Below, one piece after another: positions 12,201-20,905 of a stretch of 32,979 bases of DNA. Numbering within the stretch: position 1 is the first letter of the stretch; every line of letters starts with the position of its first letter. The notes below the pieces were generated by a model. That model was not told where the DNA came from and did not search any database. It saw only the letters and a program-made list of their open reading frames with translations. Made by a program: the position numbers and the translations under genes. The DNA comes from Gammaproteobacteria bacterium (GTDB lineage: Bacteria; Pseudomonadota; Gammaproteobacteria; S144-34), in NCBI GenBank assembly GCA_026989495.1, contig JALSJE010000010.1:1-32979 (forward strand), written 5' to 3'.

Positions 12201-12881
12201 CACCTCCTGCTCGAGCGCCTGGGACCGCGCATCCCGGACCGGACGGCGGCGGCCGAGGCGGTCGCCCGGCTGGCACCGCGCTTCGGGCTCGAGGCCGCGC
12301 ACCATGGGCTGATCGCCGAATGGCTCGTGCGCGTCTCGACCACGCCGCTGCCGACGGGCTTCCGCCTCGCCGACCTCGCCCCCGGCCATTGGCTGACGGA
12401 GCTTCCCTTCCATTTCGGCGCCTGCGGCCTGGATCTGGAGGCGCTGGACCGGCTGCTCAGGCGCCACGGCGTGGCGCCGCTGCCGCGGCCGCTGCCGTTC
12501 GGGGCCATGACGGGCCTGTTCGCCGGACAGATCGATCTCGTCTTCCGGCACGAGGGCCGCTGGTATCTCGCCGACTACAAGACCACCTGGCTCGGGCCCG
12601 ACGCGGCAGCCTATGCGCCCGAGCGGCTCGGCGAGGCCATGCGCCGCCACCGCTACGACCTCCAGTGCCTGATCTACGCGGTGGCCCTCCACCGCTATCT
12701 GGTGCGACGGGTGCCGGAGTACCGTCCCGGGCGCGACTTCGGGGGGGCGCTCTATCTGTTTCTGCGCGGCATGGACGGTCCCGACGGGGACGGGCGTGGC
12801 GCGCACCTGGTGCAGCCCGCCCCCGCGCTGGTGGAGGCGCTGGACCGCCTGCTGCAGGGAGGGGGCTGCGATGCAGGCTGA
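9258..12881 (+). CDS. recB: RecBCD enzyme subunit RecB (exodeoxyribonuclease V beta)
   Basis: A 1207-residue UvrD-type 3'-5' helicase plus nuclease. Visible motifs: Walker A EASAGSGKTHML (about 23-34), AVTFTRAATEELRGR (motif Ia), DEFQDTDPVQ (about 384, Walker B), IGDPKQAIYAFRGAD (motif III), TVHRAKGLQFPIVYLPF (motif V region) and LYVALTRAE (motif VI). The C-terminal nuclease domain has the signature QIDLVFRHEGRWYLADYKT (about 1090-1106), with the catalytic Asp and Lys, then HRYDLQ. All catalytic landmarks are intact. The start overlaps the recC stop as ATGA and is preceded by AAGGGAAGGGG. It overlaps recD by 11 bases, so the three subunits are translationally coupled. Confidence 0.97.
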   Translation: MRTKLLTAENVLTVPLEGVSLVEASAGSGKTHMLAAIVLRWLLEGHPVESILAVTFTRAATEELRGRVRRMTAACLQAFDTGRPPEGDALLAAALERWCGPERGAAARRLEAALAAMDEAPIHTIHGFCQRLLREHAFAARGEFDPEILEDESEPLLAVARDLWRARVATLPPRELALVRAMWSGPEDMLAFARPYLARVPHVRRGSVEPAAGLGEALAAAAREARNLAAGGLEGLLEAMAAWAKGEGPYKEPGWQDEALHTLGAWLAGEAAGWPQALAAVSLRRHARKRGPSQAGVPDLEALVSHPLLTLGDRVLALEAAYGRAFAAEALCALREAWAAWRARKGVLSHDDLLTRVRDALARGAGGGRLAAELVRRWPVALVDEFQDTDPVQSAILGALAAAGQRQVLIGDPKQAIYAFRGADVFAYMKTYRTVPPERRYGLPHNWRSRPACVEAVNALFARPEAFLYDEIPFQPSAPAPGRTLPALRLPDADGGEAGLCIWRMPEPDPAPSGRPRYFWPPGEARQWAARCVAAHAAGLLAAARAGGARIGARALRGGDLAVLVFTHRQAQLVRRELGRCGVASAYVGSDSVWATEEAEELETLLAAVAAPGDARLLRRALASPLLGWDLARLARELGEPGRWEHWLERFALARERWERQGFMAAFHGLMRDLGLPAALAGRMGGERALTNLLHLAELVQEAAGSRHGVEDLLAWFVRSRRERRGGGEASLLRLESDADLVRIVTVHRAKGLQFPIVYLPFPWEPPAAPPPPPAAAVWHDDEGTLVLDLVEERPGRAARERLAEWVRLLYVALTRAELRTYLPWGPVGWPAGSASSPFAWLVHGRDVTARAIEETGEAVFLDRTAGEEIDHDLAELAARAGKAAVRVLPAPEAQDSAGPPAPVTPASSGPEAAPAVQTRPFRGAVRQHWRVTSYSQLAGGGGGVRDRDADPRQAVEGEPPPAAPADVHALPRGARLGNLLHLLLERLGPRIPDRTAAAEAVARLAPRFGLEAAHHGLIAEWLVRVSTTPLPTGFRLADLAPGHWLTELPFHFGACGLDLEALDRLLRRHGVAPLPRPLPFGAMTGLFAGQIDLVFRHEGRWYLADYKTTWLGPDAAAYAPERLGEAMRRHRYDLQCLIYAVALHRYLVRRVPEYRPGRDFGGALYLFLRGMDGPDGDGRGAHLVQPAPALVEALDRLLQGGGCDAG

Positions 12882-14673
12882 GCTCGCCCGCGCCCTGGCG
12901 CTGGGGCTGGCGCGCCCCATCGACGTGCAGTTCGCGCGCTTCTGCGCGGAACGGGCCGGCGGCGACGATCCCGATCTGGTGGCGCTGACCGCCTGTGCGC
13001 TCAGCGCGCGCACGGGCGCGGGCGACGTCTGCCTGGACCTCGCCCGCCTCGCCGGGCGGCCGCTGCTCGCGGGCGGCGAGGGCGCGAGCGCGCTGCGTCT
13101 GTGCGCCCCGCCGCTCGAGCGCTGGCTCGAGGCGCTGGGGCGCTGCCCCTGGGTGGGCCGGCCCGGGGAGCGCGCCCCCATGATCCTGGACGGCGGGCGG
13201 CTCTATCTCGGCCGCTACTGGGCCTGGGAGTCGGACGTGGCCATGGGGCTGCGCGCGCGGCTCGCGCGGGATGCGCCGGTCGATGAAGCGCGCCTGCGCC
13301 ATGGCCTGGAGCGGCTGTTCGGGCCGCTGCGCGCGGAGGGCGTGGACTGGCAGCGCGTGGCGGCCGCGCTCGCCTGCCTGCGGGATCTGGCCGTGATCAC
13401 CGGCGGCCCCGGCACCGGCAAGACCACCACCATGGTGCGCATCCTCGCGCTCATGCTCGATCAGCGGCCGGATCTGCACGTGCGGCTGCTCGCGCCCACC
13501 GGCAAGGCGGCGGCCCGCATGACCGAGGCGGTGCGCCGCGAGCTGGCGCGGCTCGAGCTGCCGGCGCCGGTGCGCGCGGGCCTGCCGACCGAGGCCGCCA
13601 CGGTGCACCGCTTCCTGCGGCCGGATCCCGAAGGACGCTTCCGGCATCACCGGGACAATCCGGTGCCCGCGGATGTGGTGGTGCTCGACGAGGCCTCGAT
13701 GGTGCCCCTGCAGCTCATGGCGCGTCTGCTCGACGCCCTGCTGCCGCGTTGCCGGCTGGTGCTGCTGGGCGATCGCGATCAGCTCGGGCCGGTCGAGGCG
13801 GGGCATGTCTTCGCCGACCTCTGCGGGGGCGGCCCCCGCCACCGCCCCGCCACCGCGGTGGCGCTGGCGCGGGTCGGCGCGGTGCCGACGCCCGCGGCGC
13901 TCGCACCCGACGCCCGTGCGCCGGAGGTCGCCGACGCCCAGGTGGGGCTCACCGAAGGGCGGCGCTTCGGTGCCACGAGCGGCATCGGGCGGCTGGCCGC
14001 GGCGGTGCGCGCGGGCGCCGGTGCGGATGCCTACGGCCTCGAGGCGCCGGATCTCGCCTGGAGCGTGTGGCTGCCGGACGGTGCGCCGCCGCCCGCGGTA
14101 GCCGAATGGCTGCGGGCGCGGCTCGCGCGGGTGCGCGAGGCGCGCAGCGCGGAGGAGGCACTGGCGCGGCTGGCCGAGGCGCGGGTGCTGTGCACGGTGC
14201 GCGAGGGGCCCGCCGGCGTGGCCGGGCTCAACGCGCTCGCCGAGCGCGTGCTGGGCGTCGAGGGCGGCGACTACCCGGGCCGCCCGGTCATCGTCACGCG
14301 CAACGACTACCTCCTCGAGCTCTACAACGGGGACACGGGCGTGCTCTGGCCCCATCCCGGCGATCCCCGCCGCCTCGCCGCCTGCTTCGAGGACGGCAAG
14401 GGCGGCATCCGGCACGTGCCGCTGCAGCAGCTGCCGGCCCACGAGACGGCCTATGCGCTGACCGTGCACCGCGCGCAGGGCTCGGAGTACGAGGAGGTTC
14501 TGCTCGTGCTGCCGGCCGAGCCCGTGCGCGTGCTCGCGCGCGAGCTGCTCTATACCGGGATCACGCGCGCCCGCAGGGGGCTGCACGTGCTGGCCTCGCG
14601 CGCGGCCTGGGAGGCCGCCTGCGCGCGTGCGGCCGAGCGCAGCTCCGGCCTCGCCGCCCGGCTCGGCTGGTGA
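12871..14673 (+). CDS. recD: RecBCD enzyme subunit RecD (exodeoxyribonuclease V alpha)
   Basis: A 600-residue SF1B 5'-3' helicase, the fast motor of RecBCD. Walker A TGGPGTGKTTT lies near residue 177, followed by LLAPTGKAAARM, VVVLDEASMVPLQLM (Walker B), LLGDRDQLGPVEAG, and the C-terminal VHRAQGSEYEEV and YTGITRAR motifs. The short N-terminal domain that contacts RecB is present, and the length is normal for the RecBCD-type protein rather than the longer RecD2. ATG 12871 overlaps the recB end by 11 bases and follows GCAGGGAGGGGG. Confidence 0.97.
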   Translation: MQAELARALALGLARPIDVQFARFCAERAGGDDPDLVALTACALSARTGAGDVCLDLARLAGRPLLAGGEGASALRLCAPPLERWLEALGRCPWVGRPGERAPMILDGGRLYLGRYWAWESDVAMGLRARLARDAPVDEARLRHGLERLFGPLRAEGVDWQRVAAALACLRDLAVITGGPGTGKTTTMVRILALMLDQRPDLHVRLLAPTGKAAARMTEAVRRELARLELPAPVRAGLPTEAATVHRFLRPDPEGRFRHHRDNPVPADVVVLDEASMVPLQLMARLLDALLPRCRLVLLGDRDQLGPVEAGHVFADLCGGGPRHRPATAVALARVGAVPTPAALAPDARAPEVADAQVGLTEGRRFGATSGIGRLAAAVRAGAGADAYGLEAPDLAWSVWLPDGAPPPAVAEWLRARLARVREARSAEEALARLAEARVLCTVREGPAGVAGLNALAERVLGVEGGDYPGRPVIVTRNDYLLELYNGDTGVLWPHPGDPRRLAACFEDGKGGIRHVPLQQLPAHETAYALTVHRAQGSEYEEVLLVLPAEPVRVLARELLYTGITRARRGLHVLASRAAWEAACARAAERSSGLAARLGW

Positions 14674-14685
14674 AGGCCTTCCCGA

Positions 14686-14719
14686 AAGGGATAGCCGCGG
14701 CCGCGCCCCTCTATCCCTT
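14686..14719 (+). other. Stem-loop after recD
   Basis: AAGGGATAG (14686-14694) pairs perfectly with CTATCCCTT (14711-14719) over a 16-base GC-rich loop. It lies 12 bases past the recD stop. No T-run follows, so it may be a 3'-end stabiliser or a weak terminator. Confidence 0.5.
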
Positions 14720-14734
14720 CCGCGCCGCACCCCA

Positions 14735-14776
14735 TTGATCTGCATCAATCCGTCCCCTGAGGGGGGAGCCTAGGCT
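14735..14776 (+). promoter_or_regulatory. FNR-type anaerobic promoter upstream of dsrA
   Basis: TTGAT-CTGC-ATCAA at 14735-14748 is a perfect FNR/ANR-type box. A -10-like TAGGCT lies at 14771-14776, which puts the start near 14783. The box centre is then at about -41.5, the exact class II activator position. No good -35 is needed in this arrangement and none is seen. The close agreement of site and spacing makes chance unlikely, but a DNR/CRP-family relative could be the real ligand. Confidence 0.75.
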
Positions 14777-14788
14777 TGCACGCGGACC

Positions 14789-14848
14789 ATGGCGAGTCTC
14801 TTTGCCTTCGCAAGCCCCGGCCGCCCCTTGGCCGGGGCGCTTTTCTGA
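14789..14848 (+). CDS. Possible leader peptide of dsrAB
   Basis: A 19-codon open frame (MASLFAFASPGRPLAGALF) starts a few bases after the predicted FNR-dependent start. Its last codons run through the terminator-like hairpin at 14814-14844. No Shine-Dalgarno is visible, and the predicted leader before the ATG is only about 6 bases. The peptide has no obvious run of a regulatory amino acid. It could be chance, so confidence is low. Confidence 0.2.
   Translation: MASLFAFASPGRPLAGALF
14814..14844 (+). terminator. Intrinsic-terminator-like hairpin in the dsrAB leader
   Basis: GCCCCGGCC (14814-14822) pairs with GGCCGGGGC (14830-14838), loop of 7, followed by GCTTTTC. It lies about 30 bases after the predicted FNR-dependent start and 58 bases before the dsrA ATG. 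It could act as an attenuator, or end a short RNA of about 60 nt. Confidence 0.7.
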
Positions 14849-14901
14849 CGAAGGCCGATTCCCGACACCCGGACACCGGACACGAGCGCGGAGGGTTCGC
14901 G

Positions 14902-16146
14902 ATGCCGAAGCCGATGCATGAGACGCCCATGCTGGACGAGCTGGAGAAGGGCCCGTGGCCGAGCTTCATCACGGGCATCAAGCGGCTCGCCCGGCGCAAG
15001 GACATGATGGTGGACCTGCTGGGCCAGCTCGAGCACTCCTACCAGACCCGCAAGGGCTACTGGAAGGGCGGCACCGTCGGCGTCATCGGCTACGGCGGCG
15101 GCGTCATCCCGCGCTTCTCCGAAGTGGCCGACGCCTTCCCGGAGTCCAGGGAGTTCCACACCATCCGCATCATGCCGGCGCCCGGCATGCACTACACCAC
15201 CGAGGTCCTGCGCAGGATCTGCGACGTCTGGGAGGAGCACGGCTCCGGCCTCATCTCCATGCATGGCCAGTCGGGCGACCTCCAGCTCCAGGGCTGCGCC
15301 ACGGACAAGGTGCAGGTGGTCTTCGACGCGCTCAACGAGATGGGCTTCGACATGGGCGGGGCGGGCCCGGCGGTGCGCACCGCCATGTCCTGCGTGGGGC
15401 CGGCGCGCTGCGAGCATGCCTGTTACGACACCGCACGCGCGCACCGCGAGGTGCTCAACGTCTTCCTCGACGACCTGCACCGGCCCGCGCTGCCGTACAA
15501 GTTCAAGTTCAAGTTCTCGGGCTGCCCCAACGACTGCATGAACGCCCTGCAGCGCGCCGACATGGCCGTGCTCGGCATCTGGCGCGACACCATCCGCATC
15601 GACCAGGAGCGGGTCAGGGAGTACGTGGCCGAGAAGGGACGCCGGCACGTGCTCGACAACGTGGTCACGCGCTGCCCCACCGGCTGCATCTCGCTCAAGG
15701 ACGACGACACGCTCGAGATCCGCGACAAGGACTGCGTGCGCTGCATGCACTGCATCAACGTCATGACCAGGGCGCTCTCGCCCGGCAAGGAGCGGGGCGT
15801 CACGGTGCTGCTCGGCGGCAAGCGCACCCTCAAGATCGGCGACCTCTTCGGCACCGTGATCGTGCCCTATCACCGCATGGAGACCGACGAGGACTTCCGC
15901 TGGCTGGTGGAGCTCGCCCAGCGCATCGTGGACTTCTGGGCCGAGAACGCGCTCGAGCACGAGCGCGTGGGCGAGACCATCGAGCGGATGGGGCTCGCCA
16001 ACTTCCTCGAGGGCATCGGCATCGAGCCCGATCCCCACATGCTCAGGCATCCGCGCACGAGCTCCTACGTGCGCACCGACGGCTGGGACGAGGCCGCCCG
16101 GCGCTGGTACGAGCGCCGGGACGCGCGTGAGCGCGCCGCGGGCTGA
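14902..16146 (+). CDS. dsrA: Dissimilatory sulfite reductase alpha subunit
   Basis: A 414-residue subunit of the siroheme/[4Fe-4S] enzyme that interconverts sulfite and a sulfide-level sulfur in the cytoplasm: reductive in sulfate/sulfite reducers, oxidative in sulfur oxidisers. The opening TPMLDELEKGPWPSFITGI is typical. Cluster cysteines near the siroheme site are C164 and C170 (CVGPARC), then C208 and C212 (CPNDC). A ferredoxin insert follows with C258 and CVRCMHC (278, 281, 284). RRVEPF-type substrate arginines were not individually assigned. ATG 14902 follows GGAGG and gives the family length. The gene lies behind the FNR-type box and 20 bases before dsrB. Oxidative versus reductive type cannot be settled by eye. 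Confidence 0.96.
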   Translation: MPKPMHETPMLDELEKGPWPSFITGIKRLARRKDMMVDLLGQLEHSYQTRKGYWKGGTVGVIGYGGGVIPRFSEVADAFPESREFHTIRIMPAPGMHYTTEVLRRICDVWEEHGSGLISMHGQSGDLQLQGCATDKVQVVFDALNEMGFDMGGAGPAVRTAMSCVGPARCEHACYDTARAHREVLNVFLDDLHRPALPYKFKFKFSGCPNDCMNALQRADMAVLGIWRDTIRIDQERVREYVAEKGRRHVLDNVVTRCPTGCISLKDDDTLEIRDKDCVRCMHCINVMTRALSPGKERGVTVLLGGKRTLKIGDLFGTVIVPYHRMETDEDFRWLVELAQRIVDFWAENALEHERVGETIERMGLANFLEGIGIEPDPHMLRHPRTSSYVRTDGWDEAARRWYERRDARERAAG

Positions 16147-16166: not shown

Positions 16167-17243
16167 ATGGCACAGGCACAGCCGCGCATGCCCATCGAGA
16201 GCGGGGTTCCGGACCACTTCCAGTACATGCACCCGGCGCTGCGGCGCAACTACGGCATGTGGGCCTGGCACGACCGCCCGCGGCCGGGCGTGCTGCACCA
16301 CGTCTCCGAGACCGGCGAGGAGGTGTGGACCGTGCGCGCCGGCACCCAGCGTCAGCTCGACGTGGACACCGTGCGCAAGCTCTGCGACATCGCCGACGAG
16401 TTCGCGGACGGCCACATGCGCTTCACCATCCGCAGCAACGTGGAGTTCACGGTCACGGACGAGAGCAGGGTGGAGCCGCTGATCGAGCGCCTGCAGGCGG
16501 AAGGTTTTCCCGTCGGCGGAACCGGCCCCTCGGTGTCCATGATCTCCCATACCCAGGGGTGGCTCCACTGCGACATCCCGGGCACCGATGCCTCGGGCGT
16601 GGTCAAGGCCATGATGGACGAGCTCTACGAGGAGTTCGTCAACGAGCGCATGCCCAACCGCGTCAAGATCACCACCTCCTGCTGCCAGATCAACTGCGGC
16701 GGACAGGGCGACATCGCCATCAACGTGCAGCACACCAGGCCGCCGCGCATCAACCACGACCTGGTGGCGGACGTATGCGAGCGTCCCGCGGTGGTGGCGC
16801 GCTGCCCGGTGGCGGCCATCCGTCCGGCGCTGGTGAACGGCAAGCCCTCGCTCGAGATCGACGAGCGCAAGTGCGTGTGCTGCGGCGCCTGCTACCCGCC
16901 CTGCCCGCCGATGCAGATCAACGATCCCGAGCACACCAAGCTCGCCATCTGGGTCGGCGGCAAGTTCTCCAACGCGCGCTCGCGCCCGAGCTTCCACAAG
17001 CTGGTCGCCGCGGGCATCCCCAACAACCCGCCGCGCTGGCCGGAGGCGACGGCCATCGTCAAGCGCATCCTGCGCGCCTACCAGCAGGACGCGCGCGACT
17101 GGGAGCGCATCGGCGAGTGGATCGAGCGCATCGGCTGGCCGCGCTTCTTCGAGCTGACGGGGCTGCCCTTCACGCGCTACCACATCGACAACTGGCGCGG
17201 CGCGCGCGCGAGCCTCAACGCCTCCACCCATCTGCGCTTCTAG
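16167..17243 (+). CDS. dsrB: Dissimilatory sulfite reductase beta subunit
   Basis: A 358-residue partner of DsrA in the alpha2beta2 enzyme; the catalytically active siroheme is coordinated mainly through DsrB. Visible features are RAGTQRQLDVDTVR in the N-terminal domain, FTIRSNVEFT, GWLHCDIPGTDASG (C135), TSCCQINCGGQGD (C172, C173, C177) and a ferredoxin domain with KCVCCGACYPPCPP (C236-C246). The C-terminus ends STHLRF. A GAGGAGGGC ribosome-binding site precedes ATG 16167. No dsrE, F, H or C follows. Instead a convergent gene shares the CTAG at the stop, so the transcription unit is just dsrAB. Confidence 0.96.
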   Translation: MAQAQPRMPIESGVPDHFQYMHPALRRNYGMWAWHDRPRPGVLHHVSETGEEVWTVRAGTQRQLDVDTVRKLCDIADEFADGHMRFTIRSNVEFTVTDESRVEPLIERLQAEGFPVGGTGPSVSMISHTQGWLHCDIPGTDASGVVKAMMDELYEEFVNERMPNRVKITTSCCQINCGGQGDIAINVQHTRPPRINHDLVADVCERPAVVARCPVAAIRPALVNGKPSLEIDERKCVCCGACYPPCPPMQINDPEHTKLAIWVGGKFSNARSRPSFHKLVAAGIPNNPPRWPEATAIVKRILRAYQQDARDWERIGEWIERIGWPRFFELTGLPFTRYHIDNWRGARASLNASTHLRF

Positions 17244-17488
17244 CCGTCGTGGCCGCGGCGGACGGCCGCCGCGGCCACGGCCCGCCAGTGCCTGAGAAGC
17301 CGCAGGCAGGCGCAGCGCGCCACCGGGTCGCGCACCGACGGATCGGCCGCCATCGCCTCCAGGTGGCTGACGATGGCCGCCGCGCACCAGGGCGAGCCCG
17401 TGCGGGCAAAGTGGCGCAGCAGCCGCGCCAGCGCCGGGCGCAGGTCCCGGGCCGGTTCGGGCCGCAGGGGATCGAGCACGCCATCCAT
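17240..17488 (-). CDS. Small Fur-box-controlled protein of unknown function
   Basis: An 82-residue, mostly helical, Arg/Ala-rich protein starting MDGVLDPLRPEP, with three cysteines in SPWCAAAI and VARCAC and a closing LLRHWRAV segment. I recognise no family. It ends on the same CTAG tetranucleotide as dsrB, read on the other strand. A good promoter (17495-17523) places its start exactly at this ATG, suggesting a leaderless message. A TTG six bases upstream is an alternative start. The Fur-type operator covering the -10 implies expression under iron limitation. Cysteine pattern and context hint at an iron or Fe-S link, but that is inference. Confidence 0.65.
   Translation of the reverse strand: MDGVLDPLRPEPARDLRPALARLLRHFARTGSPWCAAAIVSHLEAMAADPSVRDPVARCACLRLLRHWRAVAAAAVRRGHDG
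17248..17279. other. Perfect 14-bp hairpin between dsrB and the convergent small gene
   Basis: CGTGGCCGCGGCGG (17248-17261), loop ACGG, then the exact complement (17266-17279). It begins five bases after the dsrB stop and also encodes the tail of the opposite gene. It can fold in both transcripts and may act as a bidirectional 3'-end structure. No T-run follows on either strand. Confidence 0.6.
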
Positions 17489-17490
17489 AC

Positions 17491-17523
17491 GCAAATGATA
17501 ATCATTTGCATTCGTGGGCGCAA
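17491..17523 (-). promoter_or_regulatory. Fur-type operator over a sigma70 promoter
   Basis: A 19-bp perfect palindrome at 17491-17509 with core AATGATAATCATT, closely matching the classic Fur-box consensus. On the minus strand TTGCGC (17523-17518), a 17-base spacer and TATCAT (17500-17495) form a promoter whose -10 lies inside the palindrome, so bound repressor would block RNA polymerase. The expected start is at about 17488, the ATG of the small gene. Confidence 0.85.
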
Positions 17524-17991
17524 GGCTGCCGCCACCGGGGCTCCCACCTCAGGTGAAAAAGGGATTTTCGGCCCTTTCGGGGTCGCCTCGTGGGTGCGGC
17601 GGCCGCCTCCGGACCGGGGGCGCCCTGGGCCCCGTGGCAGGAAGCGCGTCGGCGGGGCCTGCGCGGTGCGGTGCTTCCGCGACCCTCGCACGTCACCCCC
17701 GGTCCCGCCGGCCCGGTGCCTCCGCTACCCCGTGGACCCGGTCTGCGGCGGCGGCCGCCGCAATGCCCTTTCGCTGCAGGCGCGGCTTCCAGCCGCGCCG
17801 GGCCGGCTGGAAGCCGGCCCCACAGGGGAGGGGGTGCCGGGCCGGCTGGAAGCCGGCCCCACAGGTGAGGAGGCCCCACAGGGGGGAAGGGCGCCGGGGC
17901 GGCTGGGGGGCGCCCCTCCACGGGAGGTGACGTCGAGGACGGGAGGCTGCCGGGGGGCCGTGCCGGCAGGCCCCTCCGCCGCGGCCTCCGC
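17524..17991. other. Gene-free gap with repeats, between the Fur promoter and the chemoreceptor gene
   Basis: No credible coding region. Contents: a weak hairpin AAAGGG/CCCTTT (17558-17577) that could end minus-strand transcripts, one full and one half copy of the hairpin-doublet repeat (17779-17859), and an inverted repeat near 17947-17969 just past the chemoreceptor stop (CTGCCGG/CCGGCAG on the minus strand). The rest is GC-rich low-complexity DNA. Confidence 0.6.
17779..17859. repeat. REP-like hairpin doublet, copy 2, plus a half copy
   Basis: The full unit at 17779-17820 is identical in its two stems to copy 1 and is followed by CACAGGGG. After 18 bases the second hairpin alone recurs (17839-17859), again followed by CCACAGG. 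Shared flanks indicate that the repeated unit includes the CCACAGG tag. Confidence 0.9.
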
Positions 17992-19596
17992 TCAGCGGAT
18001 GCCTGCCGCCACCAGGGTGTCGCTGTAGCGCTTGTCCACCCGGTAGATGTGGTCCACGAGCCAGCTCTTGAGGAACCACACCAGGTCGAGCAGCGCCTTG
18101 CGTGAGCCCTCCTGCTCGTAGCGCGCCACGTGGGCGTCGAGGTCGGCCAGCAGCTTGGCGTGGCAGGCCTTGTGGGAATCGAGCTCCTCGTAGCCGGCCT
18201 TCGCCATGAGCCCCTCCTCGTCGGCGAGGTGCCGCCGGGCCAGGTCGATGAGCGCGTCGAGGTCGCGGCGCAGGCGCTCCTGGTCGCCGTCGCGGAAGGC
18301 GGCATAGACGGCGTTCATGAGCTCGAACAGGCGCCGGTGCTGCTCGTCCAGCGTCGGGACGCCCACGAGGAAGCCGTCGTGCCACTGGACGATGGTGCGG
18401 TCCACGTCGCCGCCGCCTGCGCGGTGCGTGACGCTGAACTGGCTGAGGAGCATGTCGATCTCGGCCACCGTCAGCCGCACCATGTCGGTGGTCTCCAGCG
18501 CGTTGGCGGCCACCTCGCGCACGTGCCGGGCGGTGCGGGCCGCCGCGGCCGCGTTCTCGCGCAGCTGCTCGGAGACGGCCGCCTGCTCCTCGGCCGCGGT
18601 GGCGATCTGGGCGTTGGCGTCGGCGGTGGAGCCGATGCGGTCGGCGATGCGCTCGAGCACCTCCCCCGTCTCGCGGGCGTGGCTGACGGCCTGCTCGCTG
18701 GAGCCGGCGATGGCGCTCATGCGCTCGACCACCTCCTCGGTGCCCGCCTCGAGGCGCCCGATCATGGCCTCGATCTCGGCCGTGGACTCGTGCGTGCGCT
18801 GGGCGAGGGAGCGGACCTCGTCGGCGACCACGGCGAAGCCACGGCCGGACTCGCCGGCCCGCGCCGCCTCGATGGCGGCGTTGAGCGCGAGCAGGTTGGT
18901 CTGGGCGGAGATGTCGCGGATGACGTCCAGGATGGAGCGGATCTGGCCGCTCTGCTCCGCCAGGCGATGGATCGCCTCGGTCGCCTCGCCGATGCTCGCG
19001 GCCATGCCCTGGATCAGCTCCACCGAGCGGCCGACCACCTCGCGGCCCTGGGCGGCGGCCTCGCGCGACTCGTCGGACAGGGCCCGTGCGGTCTCGGTGG
19101 CGCGCGCCACCTGCTGGATGGCCTCCGACATCTCCTCGATCGCCCGGGCGAGGTCGTCCGTGCTCGACTGGATCGCCTCCACGCTCTGCCCGGCCTCTTC
19201 CATGGCGCCTGCGACCCGCTTCATGCGCTCGCCGGCCTGCTGCGAGACGGAGACGACCGTGCTGGTCAGGCCGTCGAGGCTGTCGAGGAAGCGGTTGAGC
19301 TCGCAGGCGATGCTGTCGAGCACGCACCAGCCCATGCGGGGAAAGCGCTGGGTGAGATCCTTGCTGCCGCGGTGGAGCTCGCGCACGCCCGCGGCGAGCC
19401 GCGCGAGGCCGCGGTCGATGCGGACGATGAAATAGAGCAGGAAGGCGGCCAGCGCGGCGGCGGCCGCCGCCGCGGCGGCGTTGGCGGGCGTGCCCGAGCG
19501 GGCCTCGGCCACGGCGACGGCCAGCGAGAGCGTGGCGCTCGCGGCGGCGGCGGTGCGGACCAGGATGGACATGCGGTTGGCTCTGGGTTTCTTCAT
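17992..19596 (-). CDS. Methyl-accepting chemotaxis protein with C-terminal hemerythrin domain
   Basis: A 534-residue receptor. The N-terminus has two closely spaced hydrophobic stretches (about 10-30 and 38-58) and almost no periplasmic domain, so sensing is probably cytoplasmic. A short HAMP-like linker leads into long methylation helices and the conserved hairpin tip ([20 protein letters not shown]), where CheA and CheW dock. The last 130 residues are a bacteriohemerythrin. All seven di-iron ligands are in place: about H420, H456, E460 (HxxxE), H475, H479 (HxxxH), H516 and D521 (HxxxxD). Hemerythrin-receptor fusions such as DcrH sense O2 or redox state. ATG 19596 follows GGAG, and a sigma28-type promoter lies upstream. 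Confidence 0.95.
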
Positions 19597-19644
19597 CGTT
19601 CTCGCGCTCCGTGTGCCACGGCTCGGTCGGATGACGCGTCCATG

Positions 19645-19672
19645 GAATCGGCGTGGGGCGACGGAAACTTTA
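19645..19672 (-). promoter_or_regulatory. Sigma28 (FliA) promoter of the chemoreceptor gene
   Basis: On the minus strand TAAAGTTT (19672-19665), 12 bases, GCCGATTC (19652-19645). The enterobacterial consensus is TAAAGTTT-N11-GCCGATAA, so the match is close, with one extra spacer base. The predicted start lies about 40 bases before the ATG at 19596. Flagellar sigma control is normal for chemoreceptor genes. Confidence 0.82.
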
Positions 19673-19705
19673 GCCCGCACGCCGCACCGGGGAATCGCGG
19701 GCGGG

Positions 19706-20905
19706 TCAGCCGGCGCGCAGGGCCTCGACCGGGTCCAGGCGCGCCGCGCGCAGCGCAGGGACGATGCCCGCCGCCAGCCCCACCGAGAGCCCCAGGGCCA
19801 CGGCGAGCGCCACGAAGCGGAGGTCGACACCGACGGGCAGGCCGGGCACGAGCGCCGCGAGCAGCCCGGCGAGGCCGAGCCCCAGGCCCAGGCCCGCGCC
19901 GCAGCCGGCGAGCGCCACCGCCAGCGCCTCGGCCAGGAACAGACCCAGCACCTGCGCCTGCGTCGCGCCCAGGGCGCGCAGCAGGCCGATCTCGCCGCGC
20001 CGCTCCGAGACGGCGATGACCAGCACCGTGAGGATGCCCACCGCGCCCACCAGCAGGGAGACCGCGCCGATGGCGCCCACCGCGAAGGTGAGCATGCGCA
20101 GCACCGAGCCCAGCACCTGCAGCATCTGGTCCTGGGTGGTGAGGGTGAAGTCCTCGCGGCCGTGGCGCGCGGCGAGGACGCGCCGGATGCCCGCGGTGAC
20201 TTCCCGCACCGGCGTGCCGGCGCGGTACATCACGTCGATCTCCATCAGCCCTTCGCGCCGGAACAGTTCGAGCCCCCAGGCGGCGGGGACGTACACGGCA
20301 TCGTCCAGGTCGAAGCCCAGCACCCGGCCCTTCGGCTCCATGGCGCCGATCACGCGGAAGCGGTAGCCGGCCACCCGCAGGCTCGCGCCCAGGGGGCTGG
20401 CATCGCCGAAGAGCTCGCGGCGCACGGTCGCCCCCACCACGGCGAAGGGGCGCGGCGCGCGCACGTCGTCGGCCGGGAGGAAGCGGCCCACGGCGGGGCC
20501 GAAGGCGAACACGCGCGGAAAGTCGGGCCCGACGCCGAGCACCATGGTGCGCCGGGCGCGCCCGCGCGCCTCCACCTCGGCGTTGCCCTGGACCACGGGC
20601 ACCACGCCTCGCACCCAGGGCAGCGACCGCAGGGCCTCGGCGTCGGAGAGGGTGAGGGGCCGCACGGTGCCGAAGATGCCCGTGCTCACACCGTGGGTCA
20701 TCGTCCGACCCGGGTTGATGGCGACGAGATGCGTGCCGAACTGGGTGAACTGGGCGAGCACATAGCGGCGCGCGCCCTCGCCGAGCGCGGTGAGCAGCAC
20801 CACCGCCGCCACGCCCACGGCGATGCCGAGGGCGGTCAGCGCCGTACGCGCGGGCCTGGCCGCGAGCGCGCCCGTGACGAGGAGCGTCAGGTCCGCCGCA
20901 CGCAT
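19706..20905 (-). CDS. MacB-type ABC transporter permease (second of a tandem pair)
   Basis: A 399-residue permease with the FtsX/MacB layout: one N-terminal membrane helix (about 20-42), a large periplasmic MacB-core domain (about 50-260) and three C-terminal helices, ending [14 protein letters not shown], the family tail. It begins 13 bases after the first permease gene and has no ATPase of its own, so it probably shares the ATPase at 22127-22813. Similarity to the first permease ([10 protein letters not shown] in the first helix region, RRGEIGLL-type coupling helix, C-terminal tail) suggests duplication. Start ATG 20905. Substrate unknown. Confidence 0.9.

Follow-up and report, generated by a model that had tools for sequence, protein, structure and literature searches.

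In the window, which is the whole stretch of 32,979 nucleotides that was analysed, recBCD precedes the gene pair dsrAB-1 on the same (plus) strand. The recD gene (TIGR01447) lies at 12796-14673, upstream of dsrA1 (14902-16146; TIGR02064, 572 bits), which has its Shine-Dalgarno sequence GGAGG at 14890-14894 and is followed by dsrB1 (16167-17243; TIGR02066, 531 bits). Searches at the family and order levels reached three genomes, all of one genus, on which the order-level comparison was based: the window's own genome (G000) and two congeners, G001 (identical with L001, WFOW01000155) and G002. G001 shares the recD-dsrAB arrangement and is the only close relative with the leader of dsrA1, and the comparison of leaders was therefore one of two sequences, those of G000 and G001.

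Upstream of dsrA1, a perfect TTGAT-N4-ATCAA box, TTGATCTGCATCAA, was found at 14735-14748. In class-II FNR promoters, such a box is centred 41.5 bases before the transcription start. The box found here, with its centre at 14741.5, has the same geometry, which places the predicted start of the RNA near 14783 and the -10 element exactly on TAGGCT (14771-14776, plus strand). TAGGCT occupies the class-II position in L001 as well; both the window and L001 have the box at -41.5 together with a -10 element. G000 encodes Crp/FNR-family proteins with FNR-like cysteines, and we infer that a regulator of the FNR type would be the actual activator. In the open-licence literature searched, no description of a class-II FNR promoter driving rDsrAB was found.

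The sequence-only reading had described a strong GC hairpin followed by CTTTTC as an intrinsic terminator, which our analysis bore out. The hairpin at 14814-14838 is a 10-pair GC stem, GCCCCGGCCG-CCCCU-UGGCCGGGGC, with CTTTTC at 14840-14845, and the whole element (14814-14845, plus strand) ends about 63 nt after the expected FNR-dependent start. A terminator consensus scan returned two overlapping matches, both representing this one hairpin, compared with 0.2 expected from shuffled sequence over 1.5 kb, and both stem arms are unchanged in L001. The d'Aubenton-Carafa score was +17 when the U-run was counted directly after a stem base extended by GC/GC pairs and -11 when the 10-pair stem alone was scored; judged by these values, the hairpin is a good terminator, if not a textbook one. 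Because the same arrangement is conserved in one relative, a chance origin is unlikely. The predicted RNA of approximately 63 nt (14783-14845, plus strand), a putative 5'UTR-derived sRNA, folds better than its shuffled versions (z -2.2), and the sole structure at its 5' end is a weak hairpin (nt 9-24). Its U-run is shorter than usual for an Hfq sRNA; Hfq is encoded in G000. No Rfam match above the gathering score was obtained for the leader, the matches in the window being three tRNAs only. There is no evident promoter in the approximately 45 nt between the terminator and the dsrA1 Shine-Dalgarno sequence, and read-through would therefore yield dsrAB-1.

The conservation of the leader is concentrated in the body of this RNA. 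From the -10 element to the TGA of a short open frame (14771-14848), 72 of 78 bases are identical between the window and L001, including an unbroken run of 28 (14781-14808) that starts two bases ahead of the RNA and covers its first 26 nt. The stretch upstream of the FNR box could not be aligned with that of L001, and divergence is strong in the spacer and beyond the TGA. Identity to L001 at fourfold sites is 70% in dsrA and 84% in dsrB, and a hand calculation from these rates puts the chance of 28 identical bases in a row at roughly 5e-5 to 7e-4. The block may have been exchanged recently, since recD is 67% identical to that of G001 in protein and dsrAB 91% in DNA, but such an exchange would not explain why conservation within the leader is confined to the RNA body. 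The recD gene of G002 adjoins a different neighbour and lacks such a leader element. A BLAST search with the leader revealed no second copy in its own genus; a 19/20 match in the rplL-rpoB intergenic region of G002, which is on the antisense strand and absent from G000, was taken as chance. In the leader of L002, a hairpin of only 5 pairs with TTTT (-5.2 kcal/mol) was judged too weak to count.

The tiny open frame that had been noticed in the leader is indeed present. It comprises 19 codons, MASLFAFASPGRPLAGALF, from the ATG at 14789 to the TGA at 14846-14848 (14789-14848, plus strand; putative translation), overlaps the terminator hairpin and is open in both genomes. Of its residues, 17/19 are identical between the window and L001, and three of the five substitutions fall at third positions; five substitutions relative to one relative are too few to show translation. 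Its ATG sits in a CCATGG palindrome, which in our model pairs with the start codon of a second dsrA gene, dsrA2, and the frame may therefore be a by-product. A regulatory codon run was sought in the frame and not found. Moreover, no anti-terminator fold came near the energy of the terminator (-6 kcal/mol without the terminator pairs versus -29.5 with them), and therefore classical attenuation, the suggestion that alternative folding controls dsrAB, is not supported. Of the features that a comparison of leaders across relatives was to reveal, the conserved hairpin was found (in L001), whereas an alternative anti-terminator pairing was not. An N-terminal extension of DsrA from the TTG at 14776 was also considered, as the frame is open in the window and at the same distance in L001; it was rejected in view of changes that fall mostly at its first codon positions and of aligned DsrA proteins, which start at the ATG.

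The second gene, dsrA2 (G000:C113:15902, also designated L140), heads a canonical dsrABEFH operon with dsrB, dsrE, dsrF and dsrH. DsrA1 and DsrA2 are 64% identical as against 83% for DsrB1 and DsrB2, which suggests that the two genes have evolved at different rates or that exchange has occurred between the dsrB genes. G001 carries the downstream part of the canonical operon at a contig edge, beyond which its dsrA2 lies, and G002 has dsrA2 along with a dsrB fragment that is 97% identical to dsrB1. Because of these remnants, it is likely that each of the three species possesses both copies and that the assemblies are interrupted at the near-repeats. G000 is the only genome in which both partners are assembled; the G001 assembly lacks the dsrA2 start, and that of G002 lacks the dsrA1 leader.

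The first nucleotides of the leader are antisense to the Shine-Dalgarno sequence and start codon of dsrA2. The segment at 14784-14811 (plus strand; leader nt 2-29) pairs as leader CCAUGGCGA-G-UCUCUUUGCC versus dsrA2 GGUAAGGAGA-A-UCGCCAUGG, followed by UUCGC after a bulge, with a duplex energy of -42.5 kcal/mol. With this energy for leader nt 1-30, dsrA2 ranked first among 316 start regions of G000 taken from about 0.45 Mb of genome stretches (next -38.3; mean -26.4, sd 4.1), although the target was not declared beforehand, the match having been spotted by inspecting the leader fold and two start regions then having been tested. None of 2000 dinucleotide-shuffled leaders matched -42.5, and among 20,000 GC-matched random genomic 30-mers two reached the dsrA2 value. 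When the accessibility cost of both RNAs was included, dsrA2 was again first (-20.7), the next start region reached -16.3 and the leader's own dsrA1 start -10.7. Part of the match is generic (CCATGG and GGAG), and energies of -36 to -38 also occur with other start regions. Additionally, a 20-nt pattern that tolerated G-U pairs and at most one mismatch had three non-self sites in the whole genome; dsrA2 is the only one in the mRNA sense, as the other two are opposite likely coding frames, one of which encodes GTHGKTTTASLLA, a motif resembling that of Mur ligases. Between G000 and G002, the start region of dsrA2 does not differ over the 24 nt upstream of the ATG, the pairing stretch, and into the coding sequence; the sequence before this block diverges, and the fourfold identity is 75%. 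The G001 leader pairs with the G000 dsrA2 about equally well (-41.6 kcal/mol). Eight two-copy genomes were tested for such pairing in trans: G000 alone stands out, and none of those from other genera does. The leader shows several features expected of a 5'UTR-derived trans-acting sRNA, namely its own terminator, a conserved and weakly paired putative seed and a specific complementarity to a start region.

These features can be joined in the following model. At low oxygen, an FNR-type regulator would start the RNA at about 14783, and most polymerases would stop at the hairpin and release a small RNA of approximately 63 nt, while a fraction of the transcripts would read through so that dsrAB-1 is expressed. 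The 5' 28 nt of the sRNA would pair over the Shine-Dalgarno sequence and start codon of dsrA2 and block its translation, by which anaerobiosis would swap one DsrAB isoenzyme for the other. The sequence-only reading had proposed an FNR-type promoter that makes a small RNA of about 60 nt, with dsrAB expressed by read-through, and the promoter geometry, the terminator, the conserved RNA body and the specific target dsrA2 fit it well. We consider the chances about even that an FNR-driven, 5'UTR-derived sRNA acts as a repressor of the paralogous dsrA2, with dsrAB-1 expressed by read-through. The wider claim of an oxygen-controlled isoenzyme switch, in which the leader of one dsrAB shuts off the translation of the other copy, would be the first RNA-level control proposed for reverse Dsr; we advance it tentatively and rate it at somewhat less than an even chance.

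The hairpin could also be a device that acts in cis only, a partial or conditional terminator that sets the level of dsrAB-1, the dsrA2 match then being a chance one helped by generic start-region sequence; possibly, a ribosome that translates the 19-codon frame through the stem would relieve the terminator. The terminator and the frame are both conserved, and premature termination in 5'UTRs is common (PMC7815308). A simple terminator, however, has no need of the 5' 26 nt of the RNA, which are its most conserved stretch, no anti-terminator was found, and the antisense match ranks first of 316; we regard this explanation as unlikely, although it carries real weight. Cis control could take another form, in which the 5' end of the leader folds onto the Shine-Dalgarno sequence of dsrA1 and governs its translation. 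The minimum free energy fold of 14783-14904 does pair nt 6-23 with the dsrA1 Shine-Dalgarno sequence and AUG (z -2.6), and the pairing energy of -29.6 kcal/mol is weaker than that with dsrA2; this fold does not recur in the leader of the relative (z -0.6), and in its best match to the dsrA1 start region the leader does not surpass shuffled sequences (z -0.4), which makes this form of control improbable.

The hairpin might equally have nothing to do with dsr regulation and simply end the transcription of recBCD, since recD ends at 14673 on the same strand and dsrAB-1 follows recD in L001, too. Yet the conserved block begins at the dsrA promoter rather than at recD, and the recD of G002, next to its other neighbour, lacks the element. 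Moreover, because the hairpin is downstream of the dsrA promoter, it would stop the dsrA transcript as well, and we give the recBCD reading little credence. Finally, the direction of the effect could be reversed: the dsrA2 mRNA would pair with the nascent leader, open the terminator and couple dsrAB-1 to the transcription of dsrA2. The duplex with dsrA2 can indeed be extended into the 5' stem arm, reaching -72.6 kcal/mol over the whole leader, but the mRNA would have to catch the nascent RNA within seconds, and the additional pairing is rich in GC and involves a less conserved part of the dsrA2 of G002, so that we consider this coupling very improbable.

The preferred model, in which the terminated leader represses dsrA2, resembles the MicF/OmpF system. 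MicF is encoded adjacent to ompC, is antisense to the start region of ompF, and is divergent with its own promoter. As in the model, an sRNA transcribed beside one isoform gene pairs over the Shine-Dalgarno sequence and AUG of its paralogue in an isoform switch; the RNA predicted here, however, would consist of the isoform mRNA's own leader, released by termination. FnrS, an FNR-dependent anaerobic sRNA, is intergenic and has many targets. The predicted RNA would share its FNR dependence and anaerobic expression, but FnrS is longer, and the leader matches no Rfam family. Small RNAs in nitrate respiration are the subject of a review (PMC8139620). Several 5'UTR-derived sRNAs that arise by premature termination are known, including ChiZ and IspZ (PMC7815308), RhlS (PMC6786874) and Rli51 (PMC11394854), as are the RZ/RA sRNAs, which derive from the leader terminators of SAM-II riboswitches (PMC9373788). 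In these systems, a leader terminator yields a short RNA and a read-through mRNA, as proposed here, and several of the RNAs act in trans. As described there, ChiZ and IspZ differ in being sponges of sRNAs (PMC7815308) and Rli51 in targeting the transcripts of unrelated genes (PMC11394854), and none of these systems concerns an rDsr gene. What would be new is the target, a paralogous isoenzyme, and the control of reverse Dsr by an RNA of any kind: in the open-licence literature, we found neither a 5'UTR-derived sRNA directed at a paralogous isoenzyme nor a paper on the RNA control of dsrAB or reverse Dsr.

Two dsrA genes were present in 11 of the 32 other genomes checked (L002-L006, L008, L009, L015, L055, L059 and L073). 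The two-copy state of dsrAB is frequent in sulfur-oxidising Gammaproteobacteria. The dsrA1-type copy is sometimes under an FNR-type box: exact TTGAT-N4-ATCAA boxes also precede dsrA1-type genes in L001, L002 and L004, and a related box that in L006; the boxes of L002, L004 and L006 are accompanied by possible -10 elements with the class-II spacing. The same scan upstream of dsrA2-type genes revealed no FNR-type box except one degenerate one. Because of the boxes in L002, L004 and L006, control of the additional, dsrA1-type dsrAB copy by an FNR-type regulator probably predates the genus, whereas the terminator and the putative antisense RNA were seen in this genus only. If the model is true, an FNR promoter at dsrA1-type genes in three lineages together with an RNA against the other copy would point to oxygen-specific isoenzymes and a testable switch.

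Some further elements were observed around the dsr genes. The dsrA2 upstream regions of L140, and also of L083, L231, L233 and L234, have in common a block similar to CCCAT-GGGTAGG with CCTAGACT after it, which is probably a conserved promoter. Downstream of dsrB1, within about 17243-17640, there is a Fur-box-like palindrome, CAAATGATAATCATTTGCATT, and dsrAB-1 is adjoined by a gene for a methyl-accepting chemotaxis protein fused to a bacteriohemerythrin domain (17992-19830, minus strand), a possible oxygen sensor. Upstream of the FNR box, GGGATA (14688-14693) and TATCCC (14712-14717) form an inverted pair (14688-14717). These motifs occur in 22 of 38 dsrA upstream regions, where about 5 would be expected, often as an inverted pair; besides the window, the carriers include L140 (with the motifs some 270 and 260 nt before dsrA2), L002, L003, L004, L006, L026, L036, L048 and L049, which makes GGGATA/TATCCC a candidate for a conserved operator of dsr operons.
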